Source: Myxococcaceae bacterium (lineage in GTDB: Bacteria; Myxococcota; Myxococcia; Myxococcales; Myxococcaceae). From it: DNA of 64,000 nucleotides. The notes under the pieces are model-generated. The model was not told the origin of the DNA, did not search any database, and saw nothing but the letters and a program-made list of their open reading frames with translations. The translations under genes and the position numbers were made by a program. Numbering within the stretch: the first letter of the stretch is position 1; each line of letters starts with the position of its first letter. Positions 1 to 18,031 of this stretch are shown here, piece after piece. Where the stretch lies: NCBI GenBank assembly GCA_017881265.1, contig JADGRA010000034.1, positions 1-64,000 on the forward strand. Direction: 5' to 3'.

Positions 1-200
1 ATGGCGATGGTCCGCACGGTGTTCTCGCCCAGGTCCTGCGCCACCTCGAGCACCAGGTTGTCCGGCTGGTCGCCCAGGCTGGCGTTGCTGACGCGCAGGG
101 CGGTGTACATCTCCGGGATGGCCCCGGGGGGAAACTCGACGTCCACCACCGGCCCGAGGACCTGGGTGATTTTTCCGTCGGTGTGTGCGGTCGCGCTCAT
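1..200 (-). CDS. atpD: F1Fo ATP synthase subunit beta, N-terminal part (cut by window edge)
   Basis: Only the first 66 codons are in the window; the gene runs off the left edge. The ATG is at 200-198. The translation carries the beta-subunit N-terminal barrel signature [18 protein letters not shown] near residues 9-26, followed by the usual YTALRV and NLVLEVAQ strands. The beta subunit holds the catalytic nucleotide sites of F1, which lie beyond the edge and cannot be checked. It lies 24 bases downstream of atpG in the same direction, so the two are surely cotranscribed. atpC would be expected next, outside the window. Identification is by the N-terminal domain only but is clear. Confidence 0.95.
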
Positions 201-224
201 GGCTCCTGGCACTTTCCTGGTTGG

Positions 225-1112
225 CTATTTCAGCGCCTCGGCGCCGGAGACGATTTCCATCAACTCCTTGGTAATCGCCGCCTGCCGGGTGCGGTTGTAG
301 AGGAGGGACAGCCGGTCGATTGCGTCGTTGGCGTTGTTGGTGGCGCTGTCCATCGCCGCCATCCGCGCGGCATGCTCGGAGGCCACCGACTCGAGCAGGC
401 CCCGCCAGATGCGAAGGGACCAGACGTGCGGAAGCAGCTGTTCCAGCACCTGCTCTGTGCTCGGCTCGTACTCGAAGTCCACCAGCGAGCGCGGACCGGT
501 CTGCGGCGGAGTGACGCTGTCCGGGACGAGGTTCTCCAGCGGCAACACGCGGAGAAACTCGACGCGCTGGCTGATGGCGGAGAGGAAGGTGTTGAAGCAG
601 ATGTACACCTCATCCACCCGGCCGGAGAGGAACTCCTCGCCGACCTCCGCGGCCAGCTGCGCTGCCGCGGCGTAGCTCACCTTGCTCAGAAGGCCTGGAT
701 AGTCCTTGCGGATGGTGACACCGCGGCGCCGGAAGAATTCGAGGCCCTTGCGCCCCACCGTGGAGAGCTGGATACCCTCATAGGCGGAGCCCTTCTCGTA
801 GAGAAACCGCGAGACGCGGCGCAGGACGTTGGAGTTGAAGGCGCCGGCCAGCCCGCGGTCCGAGGACAGCACCAGCACCTCGACGCGCTTCGGCTGGGCG
901 CGGGGGATGAGCAGTGGGTGGGTGACGTCGCCGTGCCGGGCCGCGACGTCGCGGAGCACGCGCTCGAGCGCCATGGAATACGGCCGCGTGGCGAAGAGCG
1001 CCTCCTGGGCCCGGCGCAGCTTGGCCGCCGAGACCATCTTCATGGCCTTGGTAATCTGCTGTGTGCTCTTGAAGGAGCGCACACGCTTGCGGATGTCTCG
1101 AAGGCTAGCCAT
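225..1112 (-). CDS. atpG: F1Fo ATP synthase subunit gamma
   Basis: 295 residues, the usual size for the central rotor shaft of F1. The N-terminal helix [20 protein letters not shown], which continues with [16 protein letters not shown], is the classic gamma signature. The C-terminal helix ends [15 protein letters not shown], also conserved. Gamma couples proton-driven rotation of the c-ring to the catalytic alpha/beta subunits. It is followed by atpD, giving a G-D block on the minus strand. In most bacteria atpG directly follows atpA; here atpA is about 10 kb away on the other strand, so the operon has been broken. Confidence 0.97.
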
Positions 1113-1258
1113 CTGGAGGAACGGGGCCCGGGCAGACAGGCCCCGCCCGGGGCGGCGCAGCGTATGTCGCAGCCCTGGCGAAAAATCAACGTCGGTGATG
1201 ACAGTCAGACTGCTGGATGCTGACAGGGGGTTGCCCCGTCGCCACCCCCCCTTTGGAC

Positions 1259-1888
1259 ATGCCCCGCCGCCCTCTTCGCCGCCTGACCCTCATTGCCTTG
1301 GGCCTCGTGGTGGCCTTGTGCGTGCTGCCGTCCGTTCTCATCGACGTCGCCTACGCGCCGCAGATTGTCCCCCTCGCCAGCGCCCCGGCCGCCCCGGTGG
1401 GGGTGGTGTTTGGCGCGGGCCTCGCCCCCGGGGGGGAACCCTCGCCGCTTCTGGCGGAGCGGCTGGAGACGGCCCTGGCACTCTTCCACGCCGGGAAAGT
1501 CCAGCGGCTGCTCCTCACCGGGAACGCCGGCGCATACCACGACGAGATTCGCGCCATGCGGCACTACCTGCTGACCGCCGGGGTCCCGGAGCGCGCGCTT
1601 CTGGGCGACCTGGAAGGGACGTCCACCTTCGACAGCTGCTGGCGCGCCCGCAGCGTCTATGGCGTCCAGGACGCCCTGCTGATTACCCAGCGCTTTCATT
1701 TGCCACGGGCGCTCTTCCTCGCGGCCCATGCCGGCATCTCTGCCAGGGGCGTCGCGGCGGGCGGACGCCCCCGCTGGACGTCCCTGGCGGTGTGGCGGGA
1801 ATTGCTGGCACGCCCGCTAGCGGTACTCCAGGTGCTCATCCACGCCGCACCCGGCCCACCGCAGGAAACGAGCGCCCTGCCGGGCTGA
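1259..1888 (+). CDS. SanA/YdcF-like DUF218 envelope protein
   Basis: About 209 residues from the ATG chosen here; an in-frame upstream start at 1217 would add 14 residues, and MPRRPLRR directly before the membrane segment is the more natural N-terminus. Residues about 8-27 are a single hydrophobic anchor. The rest is a DUF218 domain: a VVFGAG strand near residue 50, a [17 protein letters not shown] helix, LLLTGN, an HYLLTAGVP helix, and [15 protein letters not shown]. The family includes E. coli SanA and YdcF and is linked to the cell envelope; its biochemical activity is unsettled. It stands between the divergently read atpG and the two small secreted genes. I name the family, not a reaction. 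Confidence 0.8.
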
Positions 1889-1992
1889 GGAGGGCAAGGG
1901 AGGCAAACCCGCGGGGAAGGACGAGGGGAAATGGCAGCGCCGCGCCACTCGAGCTTCCCCTCAACGGGGCAAACGAGTCTCGACGAGGCTCC

Positions 1993-2036
1993 AAAAAAAG
2001 AGAACGCTGAAGGGACCGGCTTCATCCCTTCAGCGT
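1993..2036 (-). terminator. Rho-independent terminator of the first small secreted gene
   Basis: A perfect 12-bp inverted repeat, ACGCTGAAGGGA (2004-2015) and TCCCTTCAGCGT (2025-2036), has a 9-base loop. On the minus strand it is followed by a T-run (the A-run at 1993-1999 on the plus strand). It lies about 24 bases past the stop of the gene at 2060-2278. Confidence 0.85.
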
Positions 2037-2059
2037 CCTGGTCTACTTCAAGAGGGTGC

Positions 2060-2278
2060 TTACTTCGCCGGAGCAGCGTCCGCCGGCTTGTCCGCGGCCG
2101 GCTTGGTGGTGGTGCTCTTCTTCGTTGAGCTCTTCTTGGTAGTCGTGGTGCCGTCCTTGGTCTTCGTCGAGGTCGACGCCGCCGACTTGTCGGTGGTAGC
2201 TGGCGCGGCCGGCTTGGCCTCCTGGGCGAAGGCAGCAAACGAGGTCGCAAGCACGAGCGCAGTGATGAGATTCTTCAT
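2060..2278 (-). CDS. Small secreted Ala/Lys/Thr-rich protein, copy A
   Basis: 72 residues. Residues 1-18 (MKNLITALVLATSFAAFA) form a signal peptide with a plausible AFA cleavage site. The mature part is low-complexity Lys, Thr, Ala and Pro with short KK(S)ST stretches, no Cys, and no recognisable fold; it would be strongly basic and disordered. An AGGAG ribosome site lies just before the ATG, and a strong terminator follows, so it is a real single-gene unit. The neighbour at 2422-2616 has a nearly identical signal peptide and the same style of mature region. Function unknown. An extracellular or periplasmic polycationic peptide is possible, but that is inference. Confidence 0.75.
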   Translation of the reverse strand: MKNLITALVLATSFAAFAQEAKPAAPATTDKSAASTSTKTKDGTTTTKKSSTKKSTTTKPAADKPADAAPAK

Positions 2279-2352
2279 GGGTCAGGACTCCTGGGGGGCT
2301 TCGGGTGAGAAGGGCTGAGGTGCCCGTCGGAGGACTAAGCACGTCCCGTGCC

Positions 2353-2400
2353 AGAAAAAGAGAGAGGCGCGCGCCAGCAGACCCGGCGAGCGCCTCTCTC
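2353..2400 (-). terminator. Rho-independent terminator of the second small secreted gene
   Basis: An 11-bp perfect inverted repeat, GAGAGAGGCGC (2360-2370) and GCGCCTCTCTC (2390-2400), is followed on the minus strand by a T-run (A-run 2355-2359 on plus). It lies 21 bases after the stop of the gene at 2422-2616 and separates it from copy A downstream. Confidence 0.8.
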
Positions 2401-2421
2401 ATGAAGCATGGGTGAAGCGAA

Positions 2422-2616
2422 TTACTTCGCGGCCGGGGCGGCGGCCGGGGCCTTCGCGTCCTTCGCCGGCTTCGCTGCGGGGGCAGCGGCCTTCTTGTCG
2501 GTGCTCTTCTTCGCCGGGGCAGCCTTGGCATCGGCAGCCGGGGCCGCCGCCTTGGTGTCGTCGGCGAAAGCTGCAAAAGACGTCGCAAGCACCAGCGCGG
2601 TCACGAGGTTCTTCAC
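2422..2616 (-). CDS. Small secreted Ala/Lys-rich protein, copy B
   Basis: 64 residues from a GTG at 2616-2614, which has a GGGAAG-type ribosome site. An in-frame ATG at 2688 would put 24 odd residues before the signal peptide and is rejected. Residues 1-18 (VKNLVTALVLATSFAAFA as coded) match the signal peptide of copy A at 16 of 18 positions. The mature region is Ala/Lys/Pro-rich with repeated APA and AAK steps and no Cys. Each copy has its own terminator, which suggests tandem duplication followed by drift of the mature part while the export signal was kept. Function unknown. Confidence 0.72.
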   Translation of the reverse strand: MKNLVTALVLATSFAAFADDTKAAAPAADAKAAPAKKSTDKKAAAPAAKPAKDAKAPAAAPAAK

Positions 2617-2832
2617 GGTGTCTCTTCCCTTGGAAAGCCGGCGGAACGTCATGCCCCGCCCTGTGCGAGGGGGTAGAGCAGCTTCCATGCCATGCGGAAT
2701 GACGCATCATGGCACTTGTTATGTGAGGAACGATTCCTCACCCAGGCCACCGGACCTGGGGACAAACTCCCCACACTACCCGCTACACCCTCACTGGAAA
2801 CGCCTGCGCTGGCCCCGGTTGCCTATGTCAGG

Positions 2833-4272
2833 ATGCGCTCGCCTTTGACTGACTCCGCGTTTCACTCCTCGTTTCGCCGGTACCGCGCGGCGTTCGTCTT
2901 CGTCGTTGGGCTGCTGACGCTGGTGGCTGGCTTCACCCTCTGGAACGAGCTGCACACCAACGTCCGGATTGACGAATTGTTCGAGCAAGCCCTCGAACGC
3001 GAGCAACTCATCGGCCGCATTCGCGCCGACGCCCTCGACTTGCAGGACAAGGTCAACGACCACATCGAGGCCTTGACCGACGAGTTGCGACAGGAAGCCG
3101 ACGCCCGCATGGAGGAGGTGCTCGCCGACGCCAAGGAAGCGCGGGTCCAGTACACGCGCGACCTTCCGGAGGGGGAGAAGGAAGTCTGGAACCGCTTCGA
3201 CGAGACGGCGCGGCAGCTCGCCCAGTCCGCCCGGGTGGCCCTCAAGTTCAGCAGCCGAAAGGAGCTCGAGCGCGCGCGCCAGCACCTGGAAGCCGAGCTG
3301 CGCCCCATCAGCACCAAGCTGGACACGCTGGCCGCCGAGCTCTCGGTCAAGAATGGCGAGGAGACCCGGAAGCTGCTCCACCAGCGGGAGAACCTCCGGA
3401 CCAAGACCACCCTGGTTGGCACCCTGGTAGCCGCCATCTCCATCATCATGGCGCTCCTGGTGGGCACCAGCATGGTGCGCATCCTGCGGCGCCAGGAGCG
3501 CACCATCGAGGCGCAGCTGGAGGAGCTGGACCGCCGAAACAAGGAGCTCGACGCCTTCGCCAGCCGCGTGGCGCACGACCTGGTCGGCCCCCTCAACCCC
3601 CTCAAGGGCTACCTCACGCTGATTGCGCGCTCGCCGGCCGTCAACGACCCCGACGTGCGGGAGATGCTGGCCGAGGCCGAGGCCTCCGCCACGCGGATGG
3701 TCCAGCTGGTGGAGGGCCTCTTGCGTTTCTGTCGCGCCGGCACCCGCAGCGAGGCCCCCGGTGCCGAGGTGGACACGGCCGTCACCACCATCCTGCTGGA
3801 GCTCGACCAGGTGGCCGCGCTGCAGCACGTGCGGCTGGACCGGCGGCTGCAGCCCCACGTCCGGGTGGAGGTGCCCGCGGCCCTGCTGCAGTCCATCGCC
3901 CGCAACCTCATCTCCAACGCCGTGAAGTATTCCGCCGGTCGCGCCAGCGCCCTGGTGGCCGTGCGCGTGCTGGCCGAGGGGCCCTGGGCCGTGCTCGACG
4001 TCAGCGACAACGGGCCGGGGATGAATGAGGAGACGCGCCAGCGCCTCTTCCAGCCCTTCTTCCGCGGCCCGGAGGCGCGCGGCCTGCCCGGCCACGGCCT
4101 GGGCCTGGCCACCACCAAGCGCCTGGTGGAGGCGCACGGCGGCACCATCCAGGTCCAGTCCGCACCGGGTGCCGGCACGCTGGTGACGGTGCGGCTGCCC
4201 TTGTCCCCACCCGAAGTCCGAGCGCCCGGGCCCACCCCGGTCCGAGCTCAAGTGCTGGCCGAACCGCGATGA
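2833..4272 (+). CDS. Membrane sensor histidine kinase
   Basis: About 479 residues from the ATG at 2833. The reading frame is open back to 2692, so the start is uncertain, but the extra N-terminus lacks family features. TM1 is near 19-37, a largely helical periplasmic sensor of about 150 residues follows, and TM2 is near 190-214. A coiled coil then leads to the H-box ASRVAHDLVGPLNPLKGYL with the phospho-acceptor near His248. The ATPase domain has the N-box NLISNAVKYS, a DVSDNGPGM motif, the F-box FQPFFRG and GHGLGLATTKRLVEAHGG. It autophosphorylates and passes the phosphate to its partner. Its stop overlaps the start of the next gene (ATGA), an NtrC-type regulator, so they are a cognate pair. 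The signal sensed is unknown. Confidence 0.9.
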   Translation: MRSPLTDSAFHSSFRRYRAAFVFVVGLLTLVAGFTLWNELHTNVRIDELFEQALEREQLIGRIRADALDLQDKVNDHIEALTDELRQEADARMEEVLADAKEARVQYTRDLPEGEKEVWNRFDETARQLAQSARVALKFSSRKELERARQHLEAELRPISTKLDTLAAELSVKNGEETRKLLHQRENLRTKTTLVGTLVAAISIIMALLVGTSMVRILRRQERTIEAQLEELDRRNKELDAFASRVAHDLVGPLNPLKGYLTLIARSPAVNDPDVREMLAEAEASATRMVQLVEGLLRFCRAGTRSEAPGAEVDTAVTTILLELDQVAALQHVRLDRRLQPHVRVEVPAALLQSIARNLISNAVKYSAGRASALVAVRVLAEGPWAVLDVSDNGPGMNEETRQRLFQPFFRGPEARGLPGHGLGLATTKRLVEAHGGTIQVQSAPGAGTLVTVRLPLSPPEVRAPGPTPVRAQVLAEPR

Positions 4273-5627
4273 CTCCCCGAATCCTCGTCGTCGACGACGA
4301 CCCCCACGCCCGGGGCCTGCTGCGCCGCCTCCTCGCCCCCTTGGGCGAGGTAACGGAGGCCGCCGGCGTGGCGGAGGCCGAGGAGGTGCTGCGCGGCGCC
4401 GCCAAGATGGACCTGGTGCTGACCGACATGGCCATGCCGGATGCCCAGGACGGCATGAAGGTGCTCAAGACCACCCAGGACGCGAGCCCGGACACCGCGG
4501 TGGTGGTCATCACGGCCTTCAGCAACGTGGAGGGCGCCCTCGACGCCATCCAGCAGGGCGCCTTCGACTACCTGTCCAAGCCCTTCGACGTCGACGCCAT
4601 CGTCCGGGTGGCGCGCCGCGGGCTCGAGCAGAAGCGGCTGGTCGAGGAGAACCGCACGCTGCGCAGCCAGGTGAAGCAGCCCGACCTGGTGGGGCGCAGT
4701 GCCGGGCTGCTCGAGGTCTACAAGCAGGTGGCCCGCGCCGCCTCCACCAACGTGCCGGTCCTCATCACCGGAGAGACCGGCACCGGCAAGGAACAGGTGG
4801 CCCGAAGCCTCCACCAGCGCTCGCTGCGCAGCGCGGGGCCCTTCGTCCCGGTGGACTGTGGCGCCATCAGCGAGTCGTTGATGGAGAGCGAACTGTTCGG
4901 CCACGCCAAGGGCGCCTTCACCGGCGCCGCCGGCTTCCGGCGCGGCCTCTTCGAGGAGGCCAACGGCGGGACGCTGTTTCTGGACGAGATTGGGGACGTC
5001 GGCCCGAAAATCCAGAGCCAGCTGTTGCGCGTTCTGCAAGAGGGCACCATCCGCCGGGTGGGCGAGAGCACCGCAGTGCGGGTGGACGTACGTGTGGTGG
5101 CGGCGACCAACAAGGACCTGCCCCATCTAGTGAAGGAAGGTCGCTTCCGCGAGGACCTGCTGTACCGGCTGGACGTGGTGCACCTGCACCTGCCACCCTT
5201 GCGCGACCGCCGGGGAGACATTCCGGCGCTGGTCGAGCACTTCGCGGCCCTTCACGCCCGGGGCGGCGCACGGCCGGTGGTGACGGAGGAGGCCAAGGCG
5301 CGGCTGCAGGCCTACGACTGGCCGGGCAACGTGCGCCAGCTGGAGAATGTCGTCGCCCGGGCGCTCGCCCTCAACGTCATCGGCGTGCTCGGGCCCCAGG
5401 ACTTTCCGGCCCCCATCGGCGATGCCCAGGCCAAGGCCGAAGGCCTCTTCGACGACATGCCGTCGCTGGCCGAGCTGAGCCGGCGCTACGCCGCCCACGT
5501 GCTGCAGGCGGTGGGAGGCAACAAGAGCGAGGCCGCCCGGCTGCTGGAGGTCGACCGGAAGACCTTCTACAAACTCATCGAGGCGGCCAGCGCCGAGGCC
5601 GCCGCGGAAGGCGTTCCCGGAAAATAG
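4269..5627 (+). CDS. NtrC-family sigma-54-dependent response regulator
   Basis: 452 residues. The receiver domain occupies 1-120, with the acidic pocket VVDDD at 7-11, the phospho-acceptor Asp53 in LVLTDMAMPD, and Lys in LSKPF. The AAA+ domain has Walker A GETGTGKE near 168, the sigma-54 contact loop GAFTGA near 215, and Walker B LFLDEIGD. DWPGNVRQLENV is near 355. A Fis-type helix-turn-helix sits at the C-terminus (GGNKSEAARLLEVDRKTFYK). All motifs needed to open sigma-54 promoters are present, so it should be an active bacterial enhancer-binding protein. It is translationally coupled to the upstream histidine kinase. Targets are unknown; the adjacent Hsp70 gene is on the other strand and converges on it. 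Confidence 0.94.
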   Translation: MTPRILVVDDDPHARGLLRRLLAPLGEVTEAAGVAEAEEVLRGAAKMDLVLTDMAMPDAQDGMKVLKTTQDASPDTAVVVITAFSNVEGALDAIQQGAFDYLSKPFDVDAIVRVARRGLEQKRLVEENRTLRSQVKQPDLVGRSAGLLEVYKQVARAASTNVPVLITGETGTGKEQVARSLHQRSLRSAGPFVPVDCGAISESLMESELFGHAKGAFTGAAGFRRGLFEEANGGTLFLDEIGDVGPKIQSQLLRVLQEGTIRRVGESTAVRVDVRVVAATNKDLPHLVKEGRFREDLLYRLDVVHLHLPPLRDRRGDIPALVEHFAALHARGGARPVVTEEAKARLQAYDWPGNVRQLENVVARALALNVIGVLGPQDFPAPIGDAQAKAEGLFDDMPSLAELSRRYAAHVLQAVGGNKSEAARLLEVDRKTFYKLIEAASAEAAAEGVPGK

Positions 5628-5656
5628 CCCCCGCCGCGGGGCGCGCAGGCGCCCCG

Positions 5657-7465
5657 TCAGGCGGCGGCCGTCTCCATCAGCGTCGTCAGCCGGCGGGTGA
5701 CTTCCGCCATCTGCTGGCGGTTCCCGGAACGGAAGGCCGAGCGGCCCAGGGCCACCAGCCGGCGGACGCTTTCCACCAGGGCGTGGGCGTCGGCACGCTC
5801 GGGGGCGGCGGCCTCGCTCAGCGCGCGCGTCAGTTGTTCGCCGCGCGCCAGTAACTCCGAGAAGGAGCGCATCGCCTGCACCTCGGGCGGGGATTGGTTC
5901 TTGTGGTAGGCCTTCTGTTCCGCCCGGAGCTGCTTCACCTCCGTCGGCGACAGCTCCGTGCGCTGCTCGAGCTTCACCGCCTGCGACAGCCCGGAGGACA
6001 GGTCCATCGCCCGCACGCTCAGGGTGCCCTCGCTGGACAGCTCAAAGGTGACCTCCAGCGGAGCCTCCGAGCGCGTCTGCGCCCGCAGGTCCGAGAGCAG
6101 CACCTCGCCGAGCTTGGCCTTGTCCGAACGGCCGTCGCCGTCGCCTTGGAGAATCTCGATGCGGGCCCGCGCCTGCCCGGCGCTGGCCGGGAGGAAGACC
6201 TCGCGCGCCACCACCGGAATGGGCGTGTTCTTCGCCACCAGGCACCGCATACCCCCGCCGTAGACGGCCACCCCGATGGAGTGGCTGGCCACGTCGATGA
6301 GGAGAGCCTCCCCGCCGCGCTCCGAGAGCTCGCTGGCGTGCACGGCCGCGCCGAGGGCCACCACCTCGTCAGGATTCACGCCCACCACCGGCGACCGCCC
6401 GAAGTACTCCGCCACCAGCCGGCGCACCATCGGCACGCGCGTCATCCCCCCCACCATCAGCACCACGTCGAAGTCCTTCGGGTTGGCGTGGGCCTCGGCC
6501 ATCAGCGCCTGGCAGGTCTGCCGGCAGCGCTCGCTGAGCGGCTCGCACAGCTTTTCAAAGTCCCCGCGGCTGAGCGAGGCTTCCATGTCCACCAGGGTGC
6601 CCCCCGGCCGGTGGTCGCCCAGGCCGGTCACCGAGACCAGGGCGGCCTCGCTGACGGTGAGCTCGCGCTTGGCCAGCTCGGCCGCCACCTTCAGCCGCTG
6701 CATCGACAGGGTGTCCCGTGCCGCGGCCTCGCGGTGGCTGTCCGCCACCTGCTCGAGCAGCCACTGCACCACCCGGGCGTCGAAGTCCTCGCCACCCAGA
6801 ATGGGGTCGCCGCCGGTGGCCTTCACCTGGAAGACGCCATTCTCCACCTCCAGGATGGAGACGTCGAAGGTGCCGCCGCCGAGGTCGAACACCAGCGCGC
6901 GGCCGCGGAAGTTGGAGGTCAGCCCGTAGGCGACGGCTGCCGCGGTGGGCTCATTCACCAGGCGCAGGACGTTGAGGCCGGCGATGTGCGCCGCCTCCCG
7001 CGTGGCGGCGCGCTGCAAGTCGTCGAAGTTGGCCGGGACGGTGATGACGCAGTTGCTGACGGGCCGGCCGAAGTGGGCCTCGGCGTCCAGCTTCAGCTCT
7101 CCCAAAATCATCGCCGAGACCTGGGTCAGCGGAAGCACCCGGCCCGCGATGCGCACCCGCACTTCGCCGTTGGGTCCTTCCAGCAACGGGTAGGGCACCA
7201 GCGCCCGCGCCGAGCGCGCCAGCTCCGGGGTCCAGCGCCGGCCAATGAAGCGCTTGGTCGCCGAGGCCACGTCGGCCGGGTGCTCCTCGGCGACACTCCG
7301 GGCCCCGTCCCCCACCACCCGCATGCCGTCGGGTGCAAATCCGACCAGGGACGGCGTGAGGGCGCGCCCCCGCCGGTTGGGGATGATGCGCGGGCCTCCC
7401 TCGTCGACGGTGGCAACGGCGCTGGTGGAGGTACCGAGGTCAATGCCAACGACGGGCTGGGACAT
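5657..7465 (-). CDS. Hsp70 (DnaK-like) chaperone
   Basis: 602 residues from the ATG at 7465; an in-frame codon 15 positions upstream is less likely because [13 protein letters not shown] is the natural Hsp70 start. The ATPase domain has the phosphate 1 motif [42 protein letters not shown], the phosphate 2 motif [15 protein letters not shown] and [16 protein letters not shown] beta substrate-binding domain follows (IPVVAREVF) and a shortened helical lid. The acidic EEVD-like tail of true DnaK is missing, and no dnaJ or grpE is adjacent. This fits the paralogous DnaK-like proteins common in myxobacteria rather than the housekeeping copy. It is encoded convergently with the NtrC-type regulator. 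Confidence 0.9.
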
Positions 7466-7584
7466 GGGGGACCGTCGAAAGCTTCCCACCGTGCCTTTGG
7501 GTGGGAGCAAGGCGCAGCCGAGGTGACACCCGCGCCTGCATTCGTTGCCGCTTGCCCAAACCGTGTGCTAACTGCGCGCTCGCC

Positions 7585-8124
7585 ATGGTCAATGTCTCCG
7601 TCGCTCGCCGCTACGCCCGCGCGCTCCTCGAGGCCGCCGCCGGCGCCGACACCGACCGCCTCTCTGCCCAGCTCGAATCCCTCACCGCGCTGGTGCGCGA
7701 ACGCGCGGAGTTGCGCGCCTTCATCGACGACCCGACGTACACGCGCGCACAGCAGCACGCGGTGCTCGACGTGCTCATCCGGCAGCTTCCCATCGACGCC
7801 GAGCCCCTGCCCCGCTTCCTGCGTCTGCTGGTCGACCGCCGACGCCTCGGCTCGCTGAGCGACATCACCCGGCAGTTCCGGGACCTCGCCGACGAGCGGG
7901 CCGGACGCATCCGCGGCCGGGTGGTGAGCGCCACTGCGCTTTCCCCGGAGACCCTCCAGCAGCTGCAGAAGGCCCTCGAAGCCGTCACCCACGCCCGCGT
8001 GCTGCTGGAAACCGAAGTGGACCCAACCGTGCTCGGCGGCGTCTCAGCGCAGGTCGGCTCGGTGCTGTACGACGGCACGCTGCGCACAGGCCTGGACGAG
8101 ATTCGCCGCGCACTGAAACGCTGA
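7585..8124 (+). CDS. atpH: F1Fo ATP synthase subunit delta
   Basis: 179 residues starting at the ATG of MVNVSVARRYARALLEAA, the typical delta/OSCP N-terminus; in-frame codons upstream to 7501 are not family-like. The C-terminal part has LLETEVDPTVLGGVSAQVGS and LYDGTLRTGLDEIRRALKR, the conserved delta tail. Delta links F1 to the b-subunit stalk. Normally atpF precedes and atpA follows immediately; here atpF is at 51 kb and a Ser/Thr kinase gene lies between this gene and atpA. It is divergent from the Hsp70 gene across 119 bases, which must hold both promoters. Confidence 0.93.
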   Translation: MVNVSVARRYARALLEAAAGADTDRLSAQLESLTALVRERAELRAFIDDPTYTRAQQHAVLDVLIRQLPIDAEPLPRFLRLLVDRRRLGSLSDITRQFRDLADERAGRIRGRVVSATALSPETLQQLQKALEAVTHARVLLETEVDPTVLGGVSAQVGSVLYDGTLRTGLDEIRRALKR

Positions 8125-8277
8125 GTTGACTACAGATCCGCAGCGCACCCTTCCCGCACCGGTGTCCAGGTGGGATGGCCGGATGCTGTCCACCCCTTGC
8201 CACTTGTGGTTTCATCGGCTGGCAACCGCGCGTCGACAAAAGTTGTCGCTGCCTCTCTCTCCAGGAGTCACAACCCC

Positions 8278-10254
8278 ATGCTCGAGGGCGATCCCCAGGG
8301 CCCTTCCGCATCGATGTTTCCCGCAGCTGATCCGCTGATTGGCCGAGTCCTCAACGGTCGCTTTCGCATCGTCGAGCCACTCGGCTCGGGTGGGATGGGC
8401 AAGGTCTACAAGGCGATGCAGTCGCCGCTCGAGCGCGTGGTGGCCCTGAAAATCCTCAACCCCAATTTCCCGGCTGAGAAGGACCCGGCGTTCAAGCGGC
8501 GCTTCTTCCTCGAGGCCAGCCTCACCTCCAAGCTTCGTCACCCCAACACCGTCACCGTCATCGACTACGGCCAGACGGACGACGGCATCTTCTTCATTGC
8601 CATGGAGTACCTCGAAGGCCAGACCCTGGCCGAGGTGCTCGCCCTGGAGAAGACGCTGCCCTGGACGCGCGTCCTCGACATCGGCCAGCAGGTGTGTCGC
8701 TCGCTGCGCGAGGCGCACAAGCTGGGCGTCATCCACCGAGATCTCAAACCGGCCAACGTCATGCTGCTCAATGAGGCCGACCAGGACATGGTGAAGGTCC
8801 TCGACTTCGGGCTGGTGAAGTCCTTCCTGAGCGACCTCGCGCCGGGGGACCCGGAAGTCACCCAGAACGGTGTCTTCCTCGGCAGCCCCCAGTACATGGC
8901 CCCGGAGCAGGCGCGGAACGTCGCTGACCCGAGGAGCGACGTCTATTCGCTCGGCATCCTGATGTACCAGATGCTCACCGGGCGTCCGCCCTTCCTCGGC
9001 AAGGACTACCTCGAGGTCATCTTCCTGCACATGAAGGAGCCGCCCAAGCGGCTCCGGGATGCCCGACCCGGGCTGGACGTCCCGGCCGAGGTCGAAGCCG
9101 TGCTGCTGAAGTGCCTGGAGAAGGACCCCCTGGCACGCTTCCAGTCGATGGATGAGCTGCTGGAGGCCATTCGGTACGCCGCACAAATCAGCGGAGCGAG
9201 CGGCATCTTCCAGGACCGCAGGTCCGGCGTGCACCCCACGCCCCCGCCGCTTCCGGCGGTCACCACCGGCGCCCACGCGGCCTCGCTCACGCCCCCGCCC
9301 GAGGCCAACACCATGGCCATCGACATCGCGGAGGAAGAGGGCCCGGCGGCGGTCCGCGCCCGTGCGCTGCAGCGCCTCGTCCTCATCGCCGGGCTGCTGT
9401 TGGCCCTGGGCGGCGGCTTCGCTCTCACCTGGCTCTTCATGTCCCACGGAACGCACCCCCAGCCCGAGGGCACCGCGCCCGTCGTCGCCACCCCGGCACC
9501 GGCGGTGAAGCCCGCACCCGCCCCCCCGGAGGCACCGGCACCCGTGGAACGCAAGATGGTGCGCTTCCACGTCTCGACGGACCCGCAGGGCGCCCACATC
9601 TTCGTCGGCAGGCATGACCTCGGCTCCACGCCTGCCGTCTTCGAGCTCCCGGCAGGGGCGGACGGGATGGCGAGTGCGGAGATGGTGCTCGTCTTGGAGG
9701 GCTACCCGAACCAGGCCATCACCTCGGGCGGGTCCGGCGACGTGGCGGTGAATGCCAAGCTGCAGAAGAAGGTGGTCACGCGTGTCGCCACCCCGGTGCC
9801 TTTGACACGTGAGGAGCGCGAGAAGGAGCGCGACGCCACCGTGCCCCTCCCCGTCCCGGCGGCGGCCGCCGCCGCGACCGCCCCCGCGCGGCCCGCGGCC
9901 GGTCCCCCGGCCGTCACCACCGCCACGCCGGCGCCCGCGGCCGCCCCGATTCTGCCCGGCGACGTGGTGCCCTTCGGCGAGGGAATGACGCGCCCGGTGC
10001 TGACGACTCCCGGCAAGCCCGTCTCCTACAGCCGCGAGGCCCTCGAAGCGCGCGTGGAAGGGACGATGATTGTGAAGTGCACCATCACCGTCGAGGGACG
10101 GGTGGAGCGCTGCACCGTCCTTAAGACACTGCCTTTCCTCGAGGAGGCGGTGCTCGAGAACCTCTACTCCTCGCGCTACGCGCCGGTGACCTTCCAGGGC
10201 AAGCCGGTCGCGGTGGGCTACACCTTCAACGTGAAGCTCGTCCCGCCGCGCTGA
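8278..10254 (+). CDS. Membrane Ser/Thr protein kinase with PEGA-like and TonB-like C-terminal domains
   Basis: 658 residues from the ATG at 8278, which has AGGAG at 8263-8267; longer in-frame starts are less well supported. The Hanks-type kinase domain is complete: GSGGMGKVYK near 36, the VALKIL lysine near 56, HRDLKPANV near 152, DFG near 175, and APE near 207. A Pro/Ala-rich linker leads to one TM segment near 365-387. Beyond the membrane there is a PEGA-like segment (VSTDPQGAHIFVGRHDLGST), another Ala/Pro linker, and a final domain of about 90 residues (EGTMIVKCTITVEGRVERC and YAPVTFQGKPVAVGYTFNVK) that resembles the TonB C-terminal fold. Kinases of this build are known from myxobacteria. 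What is odd is its place between atpH and atpA. Whether it acts on ATP synthase is not shown by sequence. Confidence 0.85.
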   Translation: MLEGDPQGPSASMFPAADPLIGRVLNGRFRIVEPLGSGGMGKVYKAMQSPLERVVALKILNPNFPAEKDPAFKRRFFLEASLTSKLRHPNTVTVIDYGQTDDGIFFIAMEYLEGQTLAEVLALEKTLPWTRVLDIGQQVCRSLREAHKLGVIHRDLKPANVMLLNEADQDMVKVLDFGLVKSFLSDLAPGDPEVTQNGVFLGSPQYMAPEQARNVADPRSDVYSLGILMYQMLTGRPPFLGKDYLEVIFLHMKEPPKRLRDARPGLDVPAEVEAVLLKCLEKDPLARFQSMDELLEAIRYAAQISGASGIFQDRRSGVHPTPPPLPAVTTGAHAASLTPPPEANTMAIDIAEEEGPAAVRARALQRLVLIAGLLLALGGGFALTWLFMSHGTHPQPEGTAPVVATPAPAVKPAPAPPEAPAPVERKMVRFHVSTDPQGAHIFVGRHDLGSTPAVFELPAGADGMASAEMVLVLEGYPNQAITSGGSGDVAVNAKLQKKVVTRVATPVPLTREEREKERDATVPLPVPAAAAAATAPARPAAGPPAVTTATPAPAAAPILPGDVVPFGEGMTRPVLTTPGKPVSYSREALEARVEGTMIVKCTITVEGRVERCTVLKTLPFLEEAVLENLYSSRYAPVTFQGKPVAVGYTFNVKLVPPR

Positions 10255-10430
10255 CGGCCCCCCAAGGCCGAGCGGCGACGCCGCGCCGGCGCTGGGGACG
10301 ACCGGGTGGCAGCTAATGAGCGGGACAGCTCCGGCGCAGGCGCCCGGGCCGCGCCAGCGTGCCAGCGCCAGCGTTGCCCTCCTGAGCCGCCGGTGGTACG
10401 AGGGCGCGCCCTTTCGCGACCCGGGACGCC

Positions 10431-12021: not shown

Positions 12022-12648
12022 TCAGGCGGCGGAACGGCTGCGCTGCCGCAGCGTGCCCACCAGCGCGTCAATCCAGCGGTGGCTGATGCCGAAATTCTTG
12101 TCCGGGCATGCGAAGTGGTGCGCCATATGGTGCGACCGAATGGCTTTGCCCCAGGCCGTCCTGGGCTCACGCGCGTGCGTGGAGTAGTGCACGAAGTCGT
12201 ACCAGAGGTACCCGCTCACGAAGCCGGCGAACAGCGGCAGGGTGACGAAGGGCGTCCCCAGAAGGTACAGCCCGCCGGCGATGACGAGAGCCAGCGGGAT
12301 GCTCGCCCCGAGCGGCATCACCAGACGCATCGGGTCATCCGGGAAGCGGTGGTGGTAGCCGTGGATGACGTCGTGGATTTTGCGGGTGAGCGGGCCATTG
12401 CCCTCCCAGTGGAAGAAGCCGCGGTGGATGACGTACTCCGCCACGTCCCACACCAGCCAGCCCGCCAGGAAGAAGGCCACCGCACCCCAAGGGGTGGTCA
12501 GGCCGCGCGCCAGACCCCAGGCGAGCGTGCCGACGACGACCGGGAGGTACACCACGAAGGGCACCGCCGGGTGCACCTTGGAGGTGACTTCGAGAAAGTC
12601 ATTCTGAAACAACCGCGCGTGTGCGTGCCGTGTGTAGTCGAAGTCCAT
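12022..12648 (-). CDS. Fatty acid hydroxylase superfamily membrane protein
   Basis: 208 residues with four hydrophobic segments and the di-iron histidine clusters of the fatty acid hydroxylase/sterol desaturase superfamily: HRGFFH near residue 75, HGYHH near 95, HYSTH near 153 and HHMAHH near 173. The order and spacing resemble fatty acid 2-hydroxylases (FA2H-like) more than the C4-sterol oxidases. The enzyme would use O2 and a membrane electron donor to hydroxylate an acyl chain. Myxobacteria make 2-hydroxy and sphingolipid-like species, so that substrate is plausible but not proven. It stands alone, converging on atpA and divergent from the SCO1 gene. Confidence 0.85.
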   Translation of the reverse strand: MDFDYTRHAHARLFQNDFLEVTSKVHPAVPFVVYLPVVVGTLAWGLARGLTTPWGAVAFFLAGWLVWDVAEYVIHRGFFHWEGNGPLTRKIHDVIHGYHHRFPDDPMRLVMPLGASIPLALVIAGGLYLLGTPFVTLPLFAGFVSGYLWYDFVHYSTHAREPRTAWGKAIRSHHMAHHFACPDKNFGISHRWIDALVGTLRQRSRSAA

Positions 12649-14147: not shown

Positions 14148-14996
14148 CTACGTCGGTGGCTGGAGCTCGGTGCGGACGTCCCACAACTCCGGGAAGAAGG
14201 CGAGGTCCAGGGCCCGCTGCAGAAAGGGGACGCCGGAGCTGCCACCCGTCCCCGGACGGCCCCCGATGATGCGGCGGACGGTGAGCATGTGGCGGAAGCG
14301 CCAGAGCTGGAAGCGCTGCTCGACGTCGACCAGCTTCTCGGCCATCTCATAGCCGTCCCAATAGCGCTCGGGGGCCTCGTAGATGGTTCGGAACACTGCC
14401 GTCACGCCCGGGTGTCTTTCATACGGAAGGGTGAAGTCGCGCTCCACCCGTTCGGCGGGCACCGGCAGGCCGCGCCGGGCGAGGTGCCGCAGGAACTCGT
14501 CATACAGGCTGGGCGCGGCCAGCAGTTCGCTCAGCCAGGCATGGACGTTCGGGGTGTGCCGGTGCGGGAGCAGCGCCTTGCTGTCCTTGTTGCCGAGCAG
14601 GAATTCCACGGCGCGGTACTGGTGGGACTGAAAGCCACTGGCCGGCCCCAGGACGTTGCGAAAGGAGAGGTACTCGCTGGGGGTCAGTGTCTCCAGGACG
14701 GCCCACTGCTCGAACAGCATCCGCTGGACCTGCCCCACCCGCGCCAGGATTTTGAAGGTCGGTTCCAGCTGGTCGGCCTGGACGTGGCGCCGGGCCGCCA
14801 ACAACTCATGGACGAGAAGCTTCAGCCACAGTTCGCTCGTCTGGTGCTGGATGATGAACAGCAACTCGTCGTGGTGCTCCGGGCTGGAGCGCGGCCGCTG
14901 CGCCGACAGCACGAGGTCCAGGCGCAGGTAGTCCGCATAGGTGGTGGACCCGGCCAGGTCCACCTTGATTCCAGGCTCCAGTTCCCGGCCGGGCAT
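14148..14996 (-). CDS. kynA: Tryptophan 2,3-dioxygenase
   Basis: 282 residues, the usual length for the bacterial enzyme, which opens the indole ring of L-tryptophan to N-formylkynurenine with O2 and heme. Diagnostic segments are [31 protein letters not shown] with the substrate-side His, [18 protein letters not shown], and [20 protein letters not shown] near residues 235-255, which contains the proximal heme His and the loop closing on the amino acid. No kynureninase or formamidase gene adjoins it, so the rest of the pathway is elsewhere or absent. It is separated by only 19 bases from the upstream AT-hook protein gene on the same strand and may share its transcript. Confidence 0.96.
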
Positions 14997-15465: not shown

Positions 15466-15666
15466 CTCTGGATTCGCTCCTCTCTGGTGCTTCACCCGAG
15501 CGGCGGACACTGCCACAGGGGGCGGTGCGTTTAAAGACATATGCCTTGCATTGTCTATTCCGACGCTCGCGCTGTAAGTGTTGCTTGAAAGCGCACAGGC
15601 CGACAACTTTGTCACCTGCGACGGGTTGCGCGGCCCCGAGAGCTGACGCACCCTTTGCGTCCTGAC

Positions 15667-16995
15667 ATGCGGAGGCCCCTGTCCAGCCGCCGCGCAGCAC
15701 TGCCCTGGGGGGAGCGCGCCCGGGAAGAGCTGACGCTGGCCCGCGAGCGCCTCCTGGCGCTGCTCGCGCCTGTCCCGGCGGAGGAACTCGTCCACCAGCA
15801 CTCGAAGCTGATGTCACCGCCCGTCTGGGACTTGGCCCACGTGGCCAACTACGAGGAGCAGTGGCTGGTGCGCGCGCTCGGCGGGGAGGCGGTGGGCGAC
15901 ACGCGCCTCGACGCCCTCTATGACGCCTTCCGCAATCCGCGGCCCGGCCGCTCCAGTCTCCCCCTCCTCGGCGTGGAGGAGTCCCTGCGCTACGCGGCGC
16001 GCGTTCGCGAGCGCACGCTTGCGCTTCTGGAGCGAGGCCCCGGGCCCGGCGCACCGGAGCGCCTGCTCGCCGGCGGCTTCGTCTACGGAATGGTGGCGCA
16101 GCACGAGCAGCAGCACATCGAGACGTTGCTCGCCACCCTGCAACTCATCACCCGTGTCCCGCTCGCCCCACCGGCGGGCGCCGGGGCAGCGCCGCCCCCG
16201 CCGGCGCATCCCGTCCGCGGCGAGGTGCGCGTTCCCGGCGGTCCAAGCACCCAGGGGACGGACGACGCCTGGGCCTATGACAACGAGCGGCCGGCGCACA
16301 CCACCACGCTGAACGACTTCTTCATTGACCGCACCCCAGTCACCAACGCTGACTTCGCCCACTTCATCGAGGCGGGCGGCTACCGCGACGCCGCGCTGTG
16401 GACAGGGCCGGGCTGGGAGCACCGGCTGACGGCGGGCCTCGAGCACCCGGCCTACTGGCGCCACGCCCCGGCGGGCTGGCAGCGCCGGCGCTTCGGCCAG
16501 TGGGAGCCGCTGCCGGAGGATGAGCCCGTGGCGCACGTGTGCTGGTACGAGGCCGCGGCCTATGCGCGATGGGTGCAGAAGCGCCTGCCCACCGAGGCGG
16601 AATGGGAGAAGGCGGCGCGCTGGACGCCGGCAGGGACGCCCCGCACCTTCCCCTGGGGGGAGCAGCCCCCCGGGCCCGCGCATGCCAACCTCTGGCCACG
16701 CGCCGGGCACCCCCTCGCCGTCGGCAGCTTCCCGGCGGGGGCCAGCGCCTGCGGCGCCCTCGGCCTTGTGGGAGACGTCTGGGAGTGGACAGACTCCGAC
16801 TTCCAGCCCTACCCAGGCTTCGACGCCTTCCCCTACCGCGAGTATTCCGAGGTCTTCTTCGGCAGTGGCCACAAGGTGCTGCGCGGCAGCTCTTGGGCCG
16901 TTGCGCCTCTCGCCGCCCGCGCCACCTTTCGCAACTGGGACTTGCCCATCCGCCGGCAGATTTTCTCCGGCTTTCGCTGTGCCCGTGACGCCTGA
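15667..16995 (+). CDS. egtB: Ergothioneine sulfoxide synthase EgtB
   Basis: About 442 residues from the ATG; a TTG four codons upstream is possible. The N-terminal DinB-like domain supplies the iron ligands: His in VWDLAHVANYEEQW and the pair in QHEQQHIETL near residue 155. The C-terminal half is a formylglycine-generating-enzyme-like domain (FIDRTPVTNADFAHFIEAGG, KRLPTEAEWEKAARW, GDVWEWTDSDFQPYPGF, SGFRCARD). EgtB joins the sulfur of a thiol donor to C2 of hercynine with O2. egtD follows 22 bases later, so the two form the core ergothioneine operon. Whether the donor is gamma-glutamylcysteine or cysteine cannot be read from the motifs with certainty. Confidence 0.9.
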   Translation: MRRPLSSRRAALPWGERAREELTLARERLLALLAPVPAEELVHQHSKLMSPPVWDLAHVANYEEQWLVRALGGEAVGDTRLDALYDAFRNPRPGRSSLPLLGVEESLRYAARVRERTLALLERGPGPGAPERLLAGGFVYGMVAQHEQQHIETLLATLQLITRVPLAPPAGAGAAPPPPAHPVRGEVRVPGGPSTQGTDDAWAYDNERPAHTTTLNDFFIDRTPVTNADFAHFIEAGGYRDAALWTGPGWEHRLTAGLEHPAYWRHAPAGWQRRRFGQWEPLPEDEPVAHVCWYEAAAYARWVQKRLPTEAEWEKAARWTPAGTPRTFPWGEQPPGPAHANLWPRAGHPLAVGSFPAGASACGALGLVGDVWEWTDSDFQPYPGFDAFPYREYSEVFFGSGHKVLRGSSWAVAPLAARATFRNWDLPIRRQIFSGFRCARDA

Positions 16996-17017
16996 GCCTC
17001 TTAAAAGGACTCCCAAG

Positions 17018-18031
17018 ATGCGCCTCGACACGCTCGCCGGCCCCCCAGCGCTCCGCGCCTCGTCCGTCCGCCTCGACGTGCACCTCACGGCGGAGGACCT
17101 GGCACGCGCCCTTCGGGCCGACGCACGCACCGGTCTCGGCACCCGGCCCCGCGAGCTGCCCCCCAAGTGGTTGTACGACGAGCGCGGGTGTCGCCTCTTC
17201 GAGGAGATTACCCGGCTGCCGGAGTACTACCCGACCCGGCGAGAGCGGGAGATTCTGCTCGCGCACGCACCGGAGATTGCGCAGCGCACGCGCGCGGCCA
17301 CCCTGGTTGAGCTCGGCTCAGGCACCTCGGAGAAGACGCGCCTGTTGCTGTCGGCGCTGCGCGAGCTCGGGACCCTCGAGCGCTTCGTCCCCTTCGACGT
17401 CAGCGAAACCACACTGCGGACGGCCGCGGCGGCCATCGCCCAGGAGTACCCGGGCGTCCACGTGCATGCCGTGGTGGGGGACTTTGAAAGACACCTGGCG
17501 CACCTGCCCCGCGGGAGCGCGCGGCTGGTGGCCTTCCTCGGGGGAACGGTGGGCAACCTCAAGCCAGAGGCCCGCGCCCGCTTCCTCCGCCGCCTCGCCC
17601 TGCAGCTAGGCCCCCGCGACGCGCTGCTGTTGGGAACGGACTTGGTGAAGGACATCCCCCGCCTGGAGGCCGCCTACAACGACCGGCAGGGCGTGACGGC
17701 CGAATTCAACCGAAACGTCCTCCGCGTCCTCAACCGCGAGCTGGGCGCCACCTTTGACCTGGAACGCTTTGAACATGTCGCCCGCTACGACGCGCGCCAG
17801 GGGTGGATTGAGATGCTTCTGCGCTCCACCGTGGCACAACGGGTGCAGCTGCCGGGACTGCCGCTGCAGGTGGATTTCAGCGCAGGGGAACTGCTGCGCA
17901 CCGAGGTGAGCGCGAAATTCCAGGTCGAACAGGTGGAAGGCGAGCTGGCGATGGCCGGCTTCACCCGCGCCGGCTTCTGGACGGACCGCTGGGGAGACTT
18001 CGGCCTCACGCTGGCCGTCCCCACCGCCTGA
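17018..18031 (+). CDS. egtD: L-histidine N-alpha-trimethyltransferase EgtD
   Basis: 337 residues from the ATG at 17018, preceded by AAAAGGA. It makes hercynine from histidine using three S-adenosylmethionine. Conserved parts are PPKWLYDERGCRLFEEITRL and PEYYPTRRE near 45-75, the SAM motif LVELGSGTSEKTRLLL near 95, FVPFDVSETTLR, FLGGTVGNL near 175, and the substrate-side DLVKDIPRLEAAYNDRQGVT and AEFNRNVLRVLNRELGA. The final strand FTRAGFWTDRWGDFGLTLA is typical. It is directly downstream of egtB. The lyase for the last step is not adjacent. Confidence 0.95.
   Translation: MRLDTLAGPPALRASSVRLDVHLTAEDLARALRADARTGLGTRPRELPPKWLYDERGCRLFEEITRLPEYYPTRREREILLAHAPEIAQRTRAATLVELGSGTSEKTRLLLSALRELGTLERFVPFDVSETTLRTAAAAIAQEYPGVHVHAVVGDFERHLAHLPRGSARLVAFLGGTVGNLKPEARARFLRRLALQLGPRDALLLGTDLVKDIPRLEAAYNDRQGVTAEFNRNVLRVLNRELGATFDLERFEHVARYDARQGWIEMLLRSTVAQRVQLPGLPLQVDFSAGELLRTEVSAKFQVEQVEGELAMAGFTRAGFWTDRWGDFGLTLAVPTA

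Follow-up and report, generated by a model that had tools for sequence, protein, structure and literature searches.

Genes and features of the locus

The stretch of DNA analyzed here, referred to as the window, corresponds to positions 1 to 64,000 of contig C63, which belongs to a genome bin of 81 contigs and 4.4 Mb. The bin was assigned to the Myxococcaceae from the names of the closest relatives of its atpA. Near its left end, a complete gene for a predicted Hanks-type Ser/Thr kinase is located between atpH and atpA, the genes for the delta and alpha subunits of F1 (Table 1). From left to right, the order is an Hsp70-like gene on the minus strand, atpH, the kinase gene and atpA, followed by a convergent fatty-acid hydroxylase gene on the minus strand. 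The kinase gene is separated from atpH by 153 bp and from atpA by 176 bp, and neither gap contains a terminator-like site. The order atpH-kinase-atpA on one strand, gaps of this size and the lack of an obvious terminator had been described in an earlier note on this DNA, and all three descriptions proved to be correct.

The atpA gene of the window is the housekeeping form (TIGR00962). The locus is not an otherwise intact atp operon interrupted by one kinase, because atpG is located on the minus strand and the gene after atpA is on the minus strand as well. The Hsp70/DnaK-like gene is, as judged by synteny, the usual neighbor of atpH across the family, and a relative of the hydroxylase gene is also found 3′ of atpA in genome G083.

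Additionally, the window contains a histidine kinase gene (4HB_MCP, HisKA, HATPase) overlapping an NtrC-type sigma-54 response regulator gene (positions 2692-5627, plus strand); this pair adjoins the Hsp70 gene and has close relatives on contig C11 of the same bin. By eye, positions 14148-14996 (minus strand) resemble a tryptophan 2,3-dioxygenase gene, and positions 15655-18031 (plus strand) an ergothioneine-type egtB/egtD pair.

Table 1. Genes, protein domains and predicted control elements around the kinase gene (positions within the window).
Feature	Position	Strand	Basis
atpG, F1 gamma subunit	225..1112	-	Pfam PF00231, 323.8 bits
Divergent Hsp70/DnaK-like gene	5657..7462	-	Pfam HSP70, 486 bits
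atpH, F1 delta subunit, 179 aa	7585..8124	+	Pfam OSCP, 146 bits; TIGR01145, 102 bits (cut-off 57.5)
TTGTGGTTTCATC, 13-base conserved element, likely regulatory (predicted)	8204..8216	+	61 nt upstream of the kinase start
AGGAG, likely ribosome-binding site of the kinase gene	8263..8267	+	Read from sequence
Hanks-type Ser/Thr kinase gene, complete, 658 aa (predicted)	8278..10254	+	ORF and Pfam
Kinase domain, residues 30-293	8365..9156	+	Pfam PF00069, 158.6 bits (cut-off 31.7)
Probable single transmembrane segment, approximately residues 364-386	9367..9435	+	Hydrophobic run RLVLIAGLLLALGGGFALTWLF, read by eye
PEGA domain	9568..9762	+	Pfam PF08308, 24.3 bits (cut-off 20.8) with this stretch tested in isolation; not listed at E 0.001 when the whole protein was scanned
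TonB_C domain, residues 582-652	10021..10233	+	Pfam PF03544, 49 bits (cut-off 24.6)
Promoter-like element of atpA: TTGCCC, 17 nt, TACGAG	10374..10402	+	Conserved before family atpA genes; p=0.010
atpA, F1 alpha subunit, 515 aa	10431..11978	+	Pfam ATP-synt_ab; TIGR00962, 819 bits (cut-off 484)
Fatty-acid hydroxylase gene, closing the unit after atpA	12022..12648	-	Pfam PF04116

Domain structure of the kinase

Assignment of the gene product to the Hanks-type Ser/Thr kinases is supported by the match to PF00069 and by the catalytic motifs GSGGMG, ALK, HRDLKPAN, DFG and APE, which are intact in the window and unchanged in L010, a locus of a second genus. The ATG at 8278 is preceded by AGGAG approximately 10 bases 5′, and L010, G082 and contig C11 share the protein start MLEGDPQG with the window; an alternative in-frame GTG start is present at 8170. 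The C-terminal tail passes, in addition to TonB_C, the TIGR01352 model (27.6 bits, cut-off 27.1). The build given in the earlier note, namely a complete Hanks-type kinase with PEGA-like and TonB-like domains, is thus borne out by Pfam scores above the cut-offs. The most plausible layout is a cytoplasmic kinase domain, one transmembrane helix and a periplasmic part formed by PEGA and TonB_C. A structure model computed from a two-sequence alignment was set aside (mean pLDDT 36.5).

The best match among solved structures is PknB (residues 25-294, E 5.5e-51). Like the transmembrane Hanks kinases of the PknB/StkP type (PDB 1o6y, 5u94), the window kinase has a kinase domain followed by a hydrophobic segment; outside, however, it has PEGA and TonB_C, whereas PknB and StkP have PASTA repeats. 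Membership in the PASTA kinase family PknB/Stk1 (NF033483) was considered and rejected, with a score of 304.6 bits against the equivalog cut-off of 450 bits. Kinase genes are numerous in the own genome, where the window kinase as query yielded 35 matches; the best of them besides that on C11 is 42% identical and is confined to the kinase domain. A search of a plasmid collection at E 1e-60 yielded no match.

Recurrence of the arrangement

The same gene order with full-length kinases was found in G081 (locus L010, RPRB01000012.1) and G082, both of genus g21, and the kinases of the two genera at the atp locus share 65% identity. Furthermore, atpG, the Hsp70 gene and atpH are present on contig C11 of the same bin, together with the 5′ part of the kinase gene, within which the contig ends. 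This region (L161, G000:C11:51000-70762) is 81-82% identical to window positions 1-8750 over two aligned blocks. C11 probably comes from another strain or species that shares the bin; a true duplication may also account for it. The earlier note had proposed a comparison with related genomes, and the presence of the arrangement in a second genus, represented by two genomes, and on a second contig argues, from gene order, against a recent chance insertion. An assembly or binning artefact, by which contigs of different organisms would have been joined into this order, might be suspected on the grounds that the bin contains this second version of the locus and that C63 starts and C11 ends in the atp-kinase region. 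Such an origin is highly improbable, as the same order is found in the two other assemblies, and C11 likewise shows atpH followed by the kinase. No paper describing a kinase in a myxobacterial atp locus was found in the literature.

The atpH-atpA junction in other Myxococcaceae

The positions of atpA, atpH and atpG were determined across 96 genomes of the family. At 20 loci from eight genera (g3, g5-g9, g19, g20) and in L009 (Myxococcus sp. RHSTA-1-4, positions 6353-7831), the slot between atpH and atpA is occupied by a PAS-HisKA-HATPase histidine kinase. These histidine kinases are related throughout, with 48-72% identity to that of L009. Among 64 tabulated genomes of the histidine-kinase genera, both atp genes are located on one contig in 58, and the gap between the two matches ranges there from 1.76 to 2.41 kb. 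The histidine kinase found in Myxococcus and at least seven further genera shares with the window kinase the slot, the strand and the possession of an upstream promoter-like element of its own, but with its PAS-PAS-HisKA-HATPase build it belongs to another protein superfamily.

Other genera show different contents. The slot is empty in G048 (g14) and G083 (g22), where atpH and atpA are separated by approximately 100 bp and the pair is accompanied by the Hsp70 gene in G048 and by the hydroxylase gene in G083. In G001 (g2), it contains a reverse-strand ORF of 195 aa (L180:5512-6099) with a signal-peptide-like start, for which no Pfam match and no significant histidine-kinase remnant was found. 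Relatives of atpH and atpA in the order and strand of the window are also present in Anaeromyxobacter oryzae (L013, L012), in this case as a plain pair without insert. Most other genera examined have atpH and atpA apart, and varied genes precede the stand-alone atpA across the family. One of these cases is G050 (g16), in which a 607-aa ORF (L150:4940-6763), two stretches of which match the kinase domain, terminates 237 bp upstream of an atpA gene that stands alone. Linkage of the kinase to the atp genes is not kept across the family, since other genera have an empty slot or a different occupant and the same-build kinases of four genera are located elsewhere.

More generally, atpH, atpA and atpG are dispersed in the family, being apart in many genera, and in the large genomes the distance between atpG and atpA often exceeds 100 kb. 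For G045, no atpH match was obtained, although this genome is 97% complete.

In a tree of AtpA, AtpH and Hsp70 built with FastTree, the histidine-kinase genomes form one group (support 0.998) and the Ser/Thr-kinase genomes another (0.982), while the deeper branches are weak. Two independent insertions into one junction would be the simplest explanation.

Related kinases at a chemosensory locus

When the kinase was searched for in eight other genomes, kinases of the same build were found at another locus in four of them (G043, G022, G062 and G001), representing four genera. The order at this locus is gltX, a matrixin-like gene, usually a HAD phosphatase gene, the kinase gene, CheW, CheR, MCP and a response regulator; the HAD phosphatase was not detected at the locus of G043, and a CheA-like match is present where the examined stretch extends to it. 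Similar to the window kinase, the Che-located kinases have a C-terminal TonB_C domain in L213, L214 and L215 (Pfam), a PEGA domain in L213 and a related upstream element. They differ in being located beside CheW-CheR-MCP-response regulator genes near gltX, and those of L213, L214 and L215 are 47-50% identical to the window kinase over the full length. Phylogenetically, they form the sister group of the atp-located kinases (support 0.987). The conservation of this cluster together with a PEGA-TonB_C kinase in four genera (L213, L214, L215 and L218) is an observation in its own right, for which no literature source was found.

In the genome of the window and in G081, the gltX-matrixin-HAD neighborhood is present without a kinase, and the same applies to a HAD and matrixin fragment on a short contig of G082. 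In G081, the one kinase match at E 1e-55 is the atp copy itself. The presence of this neighborhood without a kinase and the lack of a second close copy therefore point to an address of the kinase gene that differs between clades.

Putative control elements upstream of the kinase gene and atpA

A scan of both gaps for E. coli-type sigma-70 promoters yielded no site, and promoter-like elements were therefore identified by footprinting across relatives. Upstream of the kinase gene, the 13-base element TTGTGGTTTCATC shows no difference among the four atp-located copies; when three of the gaps were resampled 2000 times, a shared word of that length was never obtained. Versions with two to four mismatches are found 53-60 nt before the four Che-located kinases (p=0.004-0.028). 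Since the element is present at both the atp and the Che address, it seems to travel with the kinase gene. In the histidine-kinase clade, the gap between atpH and the kinase gene contains a different conserved element of the TATACT or TATGGT type.

Most Myxococcaceae atpA genes are preceded, whatever the upstream gene, by an element of the type TTGC-N17-TAxxGG with a TG before the -10. A -10 of the TAAGGG type occurs in a Myxococcus vegetative promoter. A source for a -10 of this type was not found in the literature. A promoter model for atpA, based on 12 histidine-kinase-clade genomes, detects the element in the gap of the window (p=0.010), in L010 (p=0.003) and in G045 (p=0.010), and the element of G082 was read by eye. 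The element of the window is weaker than those of the histidine-kinase clade, with 0.55% of all 176-nt stretches of the window scoring as high. For a number of atpA genes that stand alone, the model gives weak or no support, and some of these genes carry a CTGAC-type first half instead; it finds no atpA element in Anaeromyxobacter, which also differs from the window in this respect. The variety of genes preceding atpA fits a self-contained atpA unit.

Interpretation

Taken together, we consider it most probable (approximately 0.75) that a kinase gene under separate regulation settled in a junction made permissive by the own promoter of atpA. In the ancestor of the window's genus and g21, the gene would have come between atpH and atpA, apparently together with its own upstream element; related genomes suggest a relocation of the gene, the direction of which is presumed. 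The junction would tolerate inserts because a predicted promoter lies immediately in front of atpA in this family. The kinase is most likely expressed as a unit of its own, assuming that the conserved element has promoter activity, and its position beside the F1 genes would then be a landing place and not a sign of a role in ATP synthase. Its function would probably be to report an envelope signal via the periplasmic PEGA-TonB_C tail by phosphorylating cytoplasmic proteins. Chemosensory proteins are possible substrates because Che genes adjoin the counterpart kinases, which serves as a lead only.

Functional coupling, as suggested in the earlier note, would mean that the kinase gene is transcribed together with atpH and atpA and that its product adjusts F1 to the envelope or energy state. 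All three genes are on the same strand, no terminator-like site separates them, the arrangement has been retained in two genera despite a kinase identity of 65%, and in eight genera this slot is occupied by a different sensor kinase. As no terminator-like site was found, transcription starting before atpH may read through into the kinase gene and atpA. We nevertheless regard coupling as unlikely in view of the gaps of 153 and 176 bp, the promoter-like element before atpA and the conserved element before the kinase gene. In a study of transcription start sites in M. xanthus, the Cappable-seq and RNA-seq data of which are public (E-MTAB-11042 and E-MTAB-11043), genes more than 50 bp apart were treated as unlikely to share an operon (PMC8844925). 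Separate promoters, which the earlier note had itself named as speaking against joint expression, are predicted in silico before both atpA and the kinase gene. The proposed co-expression with F1 is not supported. The same holds for an energy-state role tied to F1, as the same-build kinases of four other genera are located at the Che cluster and not at the atp locus.

The occurrence of two unrelated kinases in the same slot could also reflect selection. One version of this idea is that the junction was selected for any sensor kinase, expression beside the F1 genes being useful without direct phosphorylation of F1. The two kinases do occur in two separate clades, and the ORF with kinase-domain matches 237 bp upstream of the stand-alone atpA of G050 points in the same direction. 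However, the two genera with an empty slot, the reverse-strand ORF of G001 and the varied genes before stand-alone atpA are not kinase cases, and kinase genes are abundant, as illustrated by the 35 own-genome matches to a single query, which makes this version rather improbable. We are similarly doubtful, and slightly more so, about a further version, according to which the Myxococcaceae atpH-atpA junction is a selected docking site where unrelated sensor kinases were recruited independently and where expression beside the F1 genes, or read-through into atpA, would tune ATP synthase to the envelope or redox state.

With an independently regulated guest gene in a permissive junction as the preferred reading, the locus cautions that a position inside an apparently interrupted housekeeping operon need not reveal the function of a gene. 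As the comparison suggests, a control element accompanies the guest gene, and the host gene is equipped with a separate promoter. In this one bacterial family, the F1 genes, which usually form one operon, are found in separate units, and several different genes occupy the same junction.
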